A DNA stretch of 64,000 bases. Source: Agelas oroides (lineage: Eukaryota > Porifera > Demospongiae > Agelasida > Agelasidae). Positions 28,501 to 61,400 of this stretch are shown in pieces. The notes beneath the pieces were generated by a model. It saw only the letters and a list, made by a program, of their open reading frames with translations. It was not told the DNA's origin and did not search any database. Within the stretch, counting starts at the first letter, position 1; each line of letters starts with the position of its first letter. Position numbers and translations under genes: made by a program. The stretch covers positions 5,896,566 to 5,960,565 of the forward strand of contig OX422195.1 of the NCBI GenBank assembly GCA_949130485.1, written 5' to 3'.

Positions 28501-31500
28501 ATATACAGTCCCCCAGTGTACATGTGTTAGTAATGCGGTAATGGGTATTATGTGATGGAGATGTACATGTAATGGCATATGATGATTTAATGTTTTTTTT
28601 ATTTTATTTTAGGATTGTGTGCTCTGTCAGTGGACAATGACAATGGTTATATAGCCTATCCTGGAAGCAGTCAGGTACGCCAGTACAACGAGTGAAACAG
28701 TTTCCACACACCACAGATAGTTCAACTAACTTTGCAAGGCACCAGTTCAGATGGGGGGCAAGCCTGAGTGAGGCCTACACTAGTGTGATCAACAAGAAAC
28801 AAGAAAATGTGATTCAACTGACCAGCTGTCTAACTTATCAGCTTAATCTCATTCCAGGTGCCAGAGGTTTACTCAAGCATGACAGCAGAGCTGCTTCTGC
28901 TAGCTTCGTGCATAGGTTGAGTACTTGTTTAACAGCTGTGTATTAGCATGCATGGCAACTTGCTCTCTCAAAGCTGCCTCAAGGTGTGCTAGTAAAGGTG
29001 ATGCATGAAACTAATAAGCACTAGGCTAGCTAGGCTGTGTGCTCACCGAGGGTGGGGAGCAGCAGAGATTCTCATGCTACCATCATAGTTTGAGGAACTG
29101 ACTCTGTATGTGTGGTCACGAATCTCTAGTATGGATCCATACCTTCGCTATTACTTGGTACATGAGACCAGCTGTGTAGGCTTGCTCCACGATGATGAAG
29201 CACTCACCTAGTTAGTATCTAACACTACCTCAATGTTGTGGATGTTAGATTACTGCAAGCAACTGGAAAGCTAGAATTCTGCTTTTGGTGTGTTCACAAA
29301 CTGAGTTGCTTGTTGGCCATATTCTTAGGGGAAATGTGGTGCTAGTATTGTGTCTGCTTGTGGGTATGTTTATCTCTGGAGGTGTTTCTTGTTTTGTTCA
29401 GAGTGGTGAAGTGCAAGTGTTTGATGTCGTTAACCTGGTAAGAGACACCATTCTTGAGCTGCCAGACTCAATTACTCTAATATGATATAGGATTGTGTTT
29501 ATTGTTCTCAGCCATTGTTCTTTCTCCCTGCTCTTTATCCCTCCCTCACCAGAAAGCAGTTGCTGCAATCACAGCTCATGACACTCCCCTTGCTGCACTA
29601 ACGTTCAATGTCACTGGCACCAAACTAGCCACTGCATCCACCACAGTAAGGCTGGAGTGTGTGTGTGTGTGTGTGTGTGTGTGTGTGTGTGTGTGTGTGT
29701 GTGTGTGTGTGTGTGTGTGTGTGTGTGTGTGTGTGTGTGTGTGTGTGTGTGTGTGTGTGTGTGTGTGTGTGTGTGTGTGTGTGTGTGTGTGTGTGTGTGT
29801 GTGTGTGTGTGTGTGTGTGTGTGTGCGCGCGCGCTAACCATATACTACTACAGTGTGGTTATGGTCTCAGTTACATCCTCTCTGTACGTTGTAGGGTACT
29901 GTTATCCGAGTATTCAGCATACCACAGGGAGAAAAGTTGTTTGAGTTCAGAAGAGGAATGAAGAGGTATGTAATATTTGGTGTATAGGCATGGCATATAT
30001 AAAACTTAATTCTATTCTTCCTCTCTCACACTAATCACCTTTCTTTCTCTCTCACACTCACACATGCATGCACTTCTATACAGGTTTATTCAGATCAACT
30101 GTCTGTCATTCAGTGTGGACGACATGTACCTGGTGACCTCCAGCAGCACAGAGACAGTTCATGTCTTCAGACTCATTGAGCCTCCCCAGGAGAAGTGAGG
30201 ATTTAGCTCACATCAGCATTCACTGCTGAACTTTGTGATATCAAAGGGATGTTTTTTCTTTCCTCATTTTCCCCTTCCCTTCTCTCCATTCCCTCCCTCC
30301 CTTCTGTTTCCTTTTCTTCCCTCCCTCTCTTCCTCCTTTCCTCTCTCTTTTCCTCTCTCTCTTCATCTTTGCTCCTTTTCCCCTCCTTCTCTTCCTCTTT
30401 TCCTCCCTTTCTCCCTCCCTCCCTCACTCCCCCCTTCCTCCCTCCCTCACTCCCTTTCTCCCTCCCTCCCTCACTCCCCCCTTCCTTAGGCCAGCAGAGG
30501 AGCAACAAGGCTGGATGAGTTACATTGGCAAAGCATTCACTTCCCCTGTTAACTACCTCCCTGCACATGTGAGTATCTGGAGGCAGCAATAAAATTTGGG
30601 GTTATCAGGTACATCGATGTGTCATGTACATATCTACACAAGTGTATTGAGCAGTAATATGTACAAAGAGCAAGTGTAAGTATTCTCACATGAGGAAAGT
30701 GGGAGATTTGATAAAGTACAAGTGTGTGGGTGAAGGTTAGAATGGTGTGACTGTGGAATGAAGCATGACTACTACTGTCAACATACATGTATGACTGGAG
30801 CTACAATAAAGTATTTGTTATCCAACACAAATGACATCATAACAGGAGTGGGGTTGCCATCAATCATTTTTGCATCTTTAGCCCCGTTTACACTAGGCCT
30901 TTAACCCGGATCCCAATCTGGATTGCAGTCCCGGTTACATAACCCACCTCCAGATGTGGGTTGAACCTAGCCTCGTTCCCAGGCCACTCCCAGATTTTAT
31001 CTCACTGCTGTGGAAAAAACTTCTCCCGCTACAGCTGCAAGATAAAATCTGGGAACGAGGCTACATGTAGGTTGAACCTGGATTGCAATCCGGATTAAGA
31101 TCTGAACAGCTTATAAACACCTGGCTGGGTTTGTAAGTGCTGTATAGAAGTTATCACTTATTCATGAGAAGTAGTACAGCCTCTCAGCCACAGATAGTAT
31201 ATTTATGAACTAAATCAGCTTAGCAGCTGAATGTGTGAATGGTTAGTACATGTAAACAGACTTAAAGCAGCAGTCAAATTTTGGTGGTTGTAACCCATGC
31301 AGGTAACAGAGGCCTTCACTCAAAGTAGAGCTTTTGCACAGCTGAAACTACCCAAGCCTGGTGAGTAACTAGCCTTGAACCCAGGCTTTCCAGATGTTGT
31401 CTCGCAGATTTGGAGAGGAAGCTGCGAGACGACATCCAGAATCCAAAGCCTCAATCCAAACGGTTTGAGGTTAGTGTGTAACCTAACGTATGAGGTGAGA

Positions 31501-58400: not shown

Positions 58401-61400
58401 TAGCTCAACGCTTGTATGATGTTGTGCTACTTCATTGCCTTGTTCAGAATCGAAACTGCTGACTCGGCACAACCAAGAAAGAGCTCAATGGTCACCAGAC
58501 CCTTTTCCTCGTGAGAGGGTGGGGTCTGGGCACGAGACTATATTTACCATTGCATTGTAGCGAATCTGGTTGTGTATGACAGAGCAGAAGTGGTCCACAA
58601 CAAAACAGTACATCTTCCTCTCCTCAGTGAGTGCCTTGGGAGTAGTAGAGGAAAAGGAGGGGAGAGAAGGAAGAGGGAGGGAAGGAGGAGGAGAGAAGGA
58701 AGATGGAGAGAGGAAAGGGGGAGAGAGAGGAAAGCATAGTTCTCATTTTGAGTTGAATGATTCAAAGTCATAATGATTGAAACTAAGTATGTAGCTTCTT
58801 TCCTAGGGAGCTGGGGTAGAAACTAAGTTAATTATCTCAACCTTCACTTTGCAAATTCAGTTATCACCACCACTTCTCTTTGCCTTCCTCCCCACACCTT
58901 CCTCTTCCCTTATTCTCCCTCTCTTTCCTCTCCCCTCCCCCTCTTACCCTGCGAAGGCCCTCCACCCTGGTGGACCGCAGTTCTTCAGTTTGGTCAGTCA
59001 ACACCTGCTTCAGCTGTATCAGTGGGAGAGAGAATATGTTCATGTGACCACATTTAGAGCATCTGATTGGTTGGACGTCATGTGATATGACTGCTCGGCT
59101 ATGCATGTCAAAATAGCAACTCAAATGTCCTGTTACAGTCTGCAAAAGTTGCTGTAATTGAACCCCCTCCCCCATGGCCTAATATGCTATACTACAATTA
59201 TCTGAGCCCCACTCACCCTACTGAGGTGGAATGGCCTAAGATGTTGCTATATCAAACACTCACCCACCCCATGTGAGGTGGAATGGCCTATGATGTTGCT
59301 ATATCAAACACTCACCCACCCCATGTGAGGTGGAATGGCCTATGATGTTGCTATATCTAAACACTCACCCACCCCATGTGAGGTGGAATGGCCTAAGATC
59401 CTACTATAATTATCTGAGCTCTACCCATCCCATGTGCTGACACAACATCAGGAATGGGGATGTTATCATAGCGACAGTTGTACCTGAGCCCCCTTATCAC
59501 GCTGGATCTGTGAGGGGTTTCTCTTCTTCTGGATACCCTTGAGTTTTCCGTTTGTCTTTTCTACCAACTGTCACAATGAGAAAGAAATATGCAGATATAA
59601 TGCCTAGCCTTGCATTTAGTTAATAATAAAAGGTACAAAAGCTGATTGACATAATTATGCCCTAATTTATGATGTTATCACTTACTGCTTGTCTCTTTGC
59701 ATTATCTTGCTTGTATGTCTTATGCATACTCTGGATGGTGGGAAAATGGTTGAATCAACAGCTGCTGGTTGTCACTAGTGCTTGTATGGAACATTAATTG
59801 TGAGAATGACTACATGTGCTACTTTTGTAGCTAAGGTTGCTAACAGAATGCATACATGATTGAAGCACTTGTCATTCATGGCTAACATACAGCACTGCTG
59901 AGAACAGCTTTAAAGCTAGCAAGCTGATAGTTTTAATAGACCACACATGTAACCATCTGCTCAGATAAAGATAGAGTAGGAATAGTGCAGGCCTGCAACC
60001 AAACCTATAATGTGCTTCCAAGCTGTTCCTCATGTACATGCCACCTCCCACCCCACTTCTCTCTATGTCAGATCCTATACAGCACAGACTTAGCTTTCTT
60101 CACTGAGCCTACTCACTGAAAATGTTTTTGCCTCCTCATCCAACTTGGTCTCCAAAGGAACAATGAAGTCAGTGTTTAGGGACCGGATCTAAAGTGAACA
60201 AAGTTATTGGTACAGGTTACAATATGACTGTATAATTGTTTTCTATACTAGTAATACAAGATCGGCATTGAAATACAATGGCTATATACAGTGTTGCAGT
60301 CTGTACAGAAGAGTTGGTGATTTCAGCCTCATATGCGTCACTATGTATTCGGGCTGCCTGGGTGTGGGGGGCATTGAAATACAATGGCTATATACAGTGT
60401 TGCAGTCCGTACAGAAGAGTTGGTGATTTCAGCCTCATATGCGTCACTATGTACTCGGGCTGCCTGGGTGTGGGGGGCATTGAAATACAATGGCTATATA
60501 CAGTGTTGCAGTCTGTACAGAAGAGTTGGTGATTACAGCCTCATATGTGTCACTATGTACTTGGGCTGCCTGGGTGTGGGGGGCATTGAAATACTATGGC
60601 TAATGAAGATGTGTCACGCAAAGCCTAAAGAAATCTGGAGATTGCGAGTAGCTGCGAGGTACGTATACAGTGTTGCAGTCCGTACAGAAGAGTTGGTGAT
60701 TACGGCCTCATATGTGTCACTATGTACTCGGGCTGCCTGGGTATGGGGTTAAGTAGGTAATCAGTCAACTGTGAGAACACATTTTCATTATTCAGGTCAC
60801 ATCTTGTTGGTGAATATCATTAGTTAGAAATACTGAGTAATAATTTGACAGTATGGGGTTCTCCTCACCCAGTTTCCATGGTGATTGTTGATCTGATCAT
60901 ACCCAGACACCATCTCTTTCATACAGTCACCTGAGGTAATAGAAAGAGCAGTGTGTGTATGCGTGTGTGTGTGTGTGTGCATGCGTGTGTGTGTGTGTGT
61001 GCATGCGTGTGTGTGTGTGTGTGCATGCATGTGCATGCGTGTGCGGCGTGCGTGAGTGTGTGTGTGTGTGTGCGTGTGTGTGTGTGTGTGCATGTGTGAG
61101 TGCGTGCGTGTGTGTGTGTGCATGCACACATTAAAGGGAGAATATGAGAAATATAGAGGATAAGTCTCCTCCATTACTCAATGTAGCGGTACTAATTCCC
61201 CATGCAGCTGCATTATTCTGCACACCTAGTTTCCTGACAGAGCCGGGAAGGTTAGCAGCCTTGGCACCAATGGACTCCATTATGGTGAAGAATCCTTCAG
61301 AACTGGATACTACATCTGTATGAGTGTTGGGACGAGGAAGTAAGAGAGGGAGTGATTCCTTACACCACACCAGCAAACAACATGGGTGTAGACACAATAT

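Follow-up and report, generated by a model that had tools for sequence, protein, structure and literature searches.

We analysed a 64,000-nucleotide stretch of the genome of the sponge Agelas oroides (contig OX422195.1, positions 5,896,566 to 5,960,565 of the forward strand), referred to here as the window. An initial annotation had described a family of short palindromic elements in it, with shared 15-bp ends, 9-bp target duplications and inner arms that were mostly private to each copy. Six elements of this kind lie in the window:

30968..31063: 96-bp palindromic element, related to a 110-bp subfamily
31370..31473: diverged element, 104 bp long, between the flank repeats GTGAGTAAC (31361-31369) and GTGTGTAAC (31474-31482), one mismatch
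37621..37692: palindromic element, 72 bp long, between the flank repeats ATAAATGAC (37612-37620) and ATGAATGAC (37693-37701), one mismatch
43343..43446: 104-bp near-palindrome with 4 of 49 arm pairs mismatched; exact flank repeat TGATAATAC (43334-43342 and 43447-43455)
52698..52752: 55-bp element, passenger in a larger transposon-like repeat; flank repeat CTTATGAAC (52689-52697) / CTTGTGAAC (52753-52761), one mismatch
58251..58540: 290-bp element, arms conserved over about 50 bp; exact flank repeat TATTTACCA (58242-58250 and 58541-58549)

The five 9-bp duplications had been reported correctly, two of them being exact and three having a single mismatch. The element at 30968 has no flank repeat at its ends; GGTTGAACC occurs at 30959-30967 and 31070-31078, offset by 6 nt as the annotation had stated.

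What the copies have in common is their ends, and here the annotation was right. TAGYCTYGTWCCCAG and its complement form the 15-bp ends of the subfamilies. Allowing up to three mismatches, the window contains 29 matches to this end compared to 8.2 ± 2.8 (maximum 16) in 100 shuffles. The exact end occurs 30,554 times (15,075 + 15,479) in the 259-Mb assembly of 141 contigs, while the reversed pattern, which served as a control, had 0 exact matches genome-wide.

Target duplications were assessed in pairs of inward-facing ends spanning 30-1500 bp, taken from the window and 28 fetched loci (18 at one fixed position per contig, eight brought in by the motif, and two, L027 and L028, picked for their arrays). 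Mismatches between the 9-bp flanks were bimodal over 119 pairs: 0 in 11 pairs, 1 in 7, 2 in 0, 3 in 1 and at least 4 in 100, some pairs being counted twice because L002 overlaps L003 and L004 overlaps L005. For the 18 good pairs (about 17 events, since a single insertion is present twice, as L006 and L007) the per-position flank match was 0.94-1.0 inside the nine bases and 0.17-0.5 outside. When repeats of 8-11 bp were allowed over 49 sources, 12 of 159 pairs had a perfect one (eleven of 9 bp and one of 10 bp), compared to 0 of 18,649 when flanks from different pairs were mated as a control. The duplication is usually 9 bp long and sometimes 8 or 10 bp (10 bp at L046, L051, L055 and L066); some copies have none. 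This near-constant length, with its mode of 9 and some 8 and 10, is that of miniature inverted-repeat transposable elements (MITEs), and it falls in the range of 8-11 bp, mostly 9 bp, that marks Mutator-like elements (MULEs). Like MITEs, the elements are short and non-coding and have terminal inverted repeats; five peptides from three of the longer elements had no match in Pfam. The arms pair along most of the element, as in foldback transposons, in the folds of 17 of the 18 elements with duplications; the remaining one, the 833-bp L013:2765-3597, was judged by eye.

Empty counterparts were found for three insertions, at L046, at L004 and for 52698. In L046 a 585-bp element (L046:342-926) stands between two copies of GGATATCTCA, and the same repeat is empty at two positions of the window:

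53743..53752: empty target site GGATATCTCA, single copy, compared to the filled site in L046
54301..54310: second empty copy of the GGATATCTCA site

The element at L004:2158-2965, whose right end is degenerate, has an empty counterpart in L001, where 60 bp match at 90% and a 2-nt gap falls within the duplicated bases. The joined flanks of 52698 are spanned at 74% by C17:4072770-4072986 with no element-size gap; two other spanning matches, on C12 and C1, exceed it by 55 bp, and in additional copies the flanks match on either side of an element. These empty counterparts show insertion. It could be speculated that the hairpins are not transposons at all but a conserved structural motif, or products of slippage or of palindromes. 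A tandem array made only of the 15-mer (L027:637-1809, 78 copies) does demonstrate that the motif can spread without insertion; however, exact 8-10 bp target duplications that never appear in the controls, together with the empty sites, already contradict this explanation, and we consider it highly improbable.

Why the inner arms look private was addressed by genome searches with the window elements, in each of which up to 40 of the first-look candidates, counting the window copy, were scored. For 58251, the 40 scored of 1302 candidates had 82-100% identity, most of them full-length, and its outer arms of about 50 bp are common to elements in L019 and L025. For 43343, the 40 scored of 1042 candidates had 79-100% identity depending on the strand, again mostly full-length. 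Dispersed relatives were also found for 37621 (40 scored of 55 candidates) and 31370 (40 of 144, mostly covering bases 1-82 of 104). Among the fetched loci, 30968 has relatives in L019 and L028, at about 80% over 93-94 bp. Together with the window copy, twenty fetched copies of the 43343 family give a single consensus at 85% mean column identity; they were taken from the 40 best matches to the query, which makes the consensus test partly circular, but the places are separate.

The annotation had stated that the inner arms differ almost completely between copies. This holds for the six window elements, which are mutually different except for 30968 and 31370, but the differences are mostly those between multi-copy subfamilies. 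Membership of different subfamilies is the main reason why the window elements seem unrelated, and the private-looking arms are mostly a set of such subfamilies. Private arms are therefore contradicted for 58251, 43343, 37621 and 31370, and the description is nearly right for 52698. The annotation had named, as an outcome that would refute it, the alignment of most arms to a single consensus as in an ordinary MITE; this outcome was seen for the 43343 family, which behaves as a multi-copy MITE subfamily (21 copies, from the best matches).

The annotation had further suggested that the arms are made or captured separately by each copy. In its most definite form this would mean that arms arise anew through inverted duplication, by snap-back copying from one end. 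Taken generally, this is refuted, since for four of the five window elements used in genome-wide searches dispersed relatives carry the same inner arms. Some observations are nevertheless in its favor. Within the 43343 family both arms carry the same change in 9 cases, compared to 4.8 in shuffles (9 is reached in 26 of 2000); however, this covariation is weak, and six of the nine are found at just two columns, a pattern that sub-lineages would produce. The 833-bp element L013:2765-3597 looks palindromic by eye along most of its length, and for 52698 no more than two relatives lie outside the host repeat. Homogenisation of the arms by gene conversion was also considered for the 43343 family and was set aside, the signal of shared changes being weak.

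The element at 52698 is a special case. All 15 places returned by its search were scored, and 13 of them also match its flanks and represent one host repeat; the two places outside this repeat have 80-82% identity over 53-64 bp. The element and both of its flank repeats are 100% identical at five places, window included. Such identity shows that 52698 is not a lone insertion and was copied together with its surroundings. It lies within the following stretch:

52333..53595: stretch of about 1.26 kb, probably the transposon that carries 52698, whose ends are inverted repeats of 31 bp (52334-52364 and 53565-53595)

Several copies of 52333-53595 exist, and its right part is common to L032 up to the end at 53595. 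Around it lie two pairs of direct repeats with 98-99% identity, one of 152 bp (52181-52332 and 54009-54160) and one of 300 bp (53602-53901 and 54160-54459), which are related to sequence beside a MULE match in L046.

The size range of the elements extends from more than 800 bp down to 32 bp. Exact-ended inward pairs with 0-30 bp between the ends (30-60 bp in total) number 1,047 genome-wide, where even scatter predicts about 28, and 166 have 0-10 bp between the ends (30-40 bp in total), where about 10 are predicted. Typical MITEs are about 100-600 bp long, compared to which these 1,047 pairs are very short. From 50 listed places of 30-60 bp we fetched 20 by hand, preferring short ones; L056 and L064 duplicate L055 and L063 and were not counted, leaving 18 distinct sites. 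Perfect duplications were present at 14 of the 18 (eight of 9 bp, three of 10 bp and three of 8 bp), compared to 0 of 306 in the mated-flank control, and six of the seven distinct sites with elements of 32-41 bp had perfect duplications of 9 or 10 bp. The shortest element with a duplication is 32 bp long (L049); a pair of 31 bp was seen only as a pattern match.

How the two ends of a micro-element are related was examined in 79 of 94 distinct listed places, the first in contig order of the 1,047 and the 166; the other 15, C1:16875437 among them, were plainly local or segmental duplicates or near variants and were left out. Position 10 (A or T) was the same at both ends in 77 of the 79 (62 of 64 distinct sequences), compared to a fraction of 0.51 if ends mixed freely, and it follows that ends descend as matched pairs. 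Agreement was found at position 4 in 72 of 79 (85% expected) and at position 7, a CpG, in 63 of 79 (80% expected); position 7 varies independently. Perfect palindromes with no loop made up 17 of the 79 micro-elements (8 of 64 distinct sequences), and 62 were of even length (47 of 64 distinct; p about 2e-4). Snap-back copying fits these palindromes. However, a deletion centred on the symmetry axis also yields perfect palindromes of even length and fits them too. Taking these observations with those on the arms, we regard snap-back copying as an improbable source of the family, and descent of subfamilies that have been shortened by deletion as the better explanation.

Loss of sequence between direct repeats is visible at 30968, whose right arm, compared by eye to L019 and L028, is without 11 bp between two CTGGGA repeats. 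Two sites with different duplications, L053 and L054, carry identical 40-bp copies. This identity alone is no proof of movement at that size, because a hypothetical longer parent with the palindromic seed CCACGTGG in both arms would contain it as direct repeats, and deletion would yield the same product repeatedly. An asymmetric micro-element type of 34 bp likewise occurs at two places, C1:15435477 and C2:7996963. The micro-elements of 32-40 bp, two ends of 15-16 bp placed head to head, have either been mobilised themselves or shrunk after landing; that they were mobilised is possible but doubtful.

With regard to the transposase, the genome holds at least 119 matches to PF10551 (MULE; 150 of 194 candidates were scored) and 23 matches to PF12762 (Merlin/IS1595-type). 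Merlin elements make target duplications of 8-9 bp. One possibility is that Merlin (IS1016/IS1595) or another non-MULE transposase mobilised the same insertions, and the best PF12762 matches are without stops; however, this is unlikely, as 10-bp duplications occur at four loci and MULE matches outnumber those of Merlin. The spread of 8-10 bp with a mode of 9 is moreover that of the Mutator/foldback element Tm1, as far as the account of it goes (PMC3169594). A Mutator assignment, as guessed in the annotation, is plausible from the lengths of the duplications; the transposase-bearing element with the same ends that it would call for was not found among 20 MULE loci searched 1.5 kb to each side. 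The supposed MULE remnant at 62.4 kb, an 89-residue open frame at 62400-62666, had no Pfam MULE match, and no duplication-flanked pair of these ends was found around it.

The most likely explanation, to which we give a probability of about 0.78, is that the palindromes belong to a very abundant non-autonomous cut-and-paste superfamily of foldback-shaped MITEs that have common 15-bp ends, make 8-10 bp duplications and are likely mobilised by a MULE. One transposase, most likely of the Mutator type, would act in trans on the 15-bp ends, and insertion through a staggered cut of 8-10 bp would duplicate 9 bp (8-10 bp) of the target. Each subfamily would descend from a palindromic source of its own, which would give rise to the different inner arms, and internal deletions between short repeats would have reduced these sources in length. 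Where both arms of a palindrome contain a self-complementary stretch, that stretch also forms a pair of direct repeats, and this would favor deletion.

Several observations weigh against this explanation. Not all copies are flanked by a duplication: among the micro-element sites, L050 and L062 had no duplication, L061 had two mismatches and L059 had one. In the 20 copies of the 43343 family, for which shifted ends were searched and only true ends counted, seven had an exact 8- or 9-bp duplication, four had one mismatch and nine had none that was accepted. A spanning empty site was found for only one of 23 joined-flank queries (L004) against the fetched DNA. That 52698 has few relatives outside its host repeat slightly lowers our confidence in the explanation. 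An autonomous element combining these ends, a duplication and a transposase was not found at the 20 of 119 MULE loci examined; at these, 17 loose end pairs (up to four mismatches per end; in L031, L032, L040 and L046) do enclose the MULE match, but they have no duplication, with at least three mismatches at 8, 9 and 10 bp. Merlin/IS1595-type transposases are present as well. Finally, we had expected beforehand that micro-elements could form from the hairpin of a single end, considering CCAGGCGC...GCGCCTGG in L046 and CCAGACCC...GGGTCTGG in the 58251 type. This route is unsupported: of 55 places the letters were examined at three 58251-type micro-elements, and two of these, as we interpret them, are central deletions of the outer arms.

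MITE families that share one set of ends are non-autonomous, palindromic and of high copy number, and comprise several subfamilies with different interiors. The sponge family looks like such MITE subfamilies with one common set of ends and resembles Mutator/foldback elements such as Tm1. As reported in PMC3169594, Tm1 of root-knot nematodes is a Mutator/Foldback family with a Phantom-type MULE transposase and target duplications of 8-10 bp, most commonly 9, in 45 of 53 elements. The likeness lies in the 8-10 bp duplications, the foldback shape, the many MITE-like copies and a paralogous empty site. Tm1 differs, according to the same account, in its size of 0.17-2.5 kb, in the tandem motifs of 13-15 bp in its inverted repeats and in its terminal motifs, whereas the sponge elements reach down to 32 bp and share a 15-bp end, and no transposase-bearing copy of them was found. 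The Foldback/Galileo elements of Drosophila are similar in being foldback elements with variable long arms, as far as they are described in PMC3573991, PMC4079207 and PMC3688188; Galileo differs as a P-superfamily element with much longer arms. In the open-licence literature, nothing was recognised on the sponge elements under their end motif, the smallest MITEs or sponge MITEs; papers that contain the letters of the end motif deal, to judge by their titles, with other subjects.

The transposon end is also the basis of tandem arrays. Besides L027:637-1809, with 78 copies of 15-bp units, arrays with units of 24 bp, 33/35 bp and 43 bp were seen by eye at L016:~1850-2230, L028:7982-8305 and L021:~114-365. 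These look as if ends seed satellites, and they may be compared to Tetris of Drosophila virilis, parts of which are reported to have become satellite DNA.

Four further hairpins had been listed in the window. All have poor partner ends and no flank repeat, and none of the four was supported:

32890..33184: degenerate ends, no flank repeat; rejected as an element
35257..35324: degenerate ends, no flank repeat; rejected as an element
38848..38893: 46-bp hairpin, degenerate, its flanks without a repeat
48112..48166: hairpin, degenerate, its flanks likewise without a repeat

The elements at 30968 and 31370 sit just upstream of an exon-like match to WIPI2 at 31834-31938 (E 7e-6 to PDB WIPI2 chains; PROPPIN 9.7e-6, below the Pfam cut-off). 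Elsewhere in the window, a 192-bp tandem repeat forms two arrays side by side at 10-9191, one with about 21 copies and the other with about 26. Strand asymmetry is strong, with a GC skew of +0.47 at 12001-16000 and of -0.53 at 36001-38000, the latter stretch containing a C-rich minisatellite (36695-37569).

The window hairpins are ordinary in kind and extreme in number and size. Their size series may show how palindromic transposons shrink. If elements of 32-40 bp are mobile, they would to our knowledge be among the smallest cut-and-paste transposons. At that length they would be too short for the usual looping of distant ends and would be cut while bound as a compact palindrome or hairpin. 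Their movement would set a lower limit on what the transposase needs, and the family would provide a natural series, from 32 to more than 800 bp with the same ends in the same genome, for the effects of end spacing on transposition.

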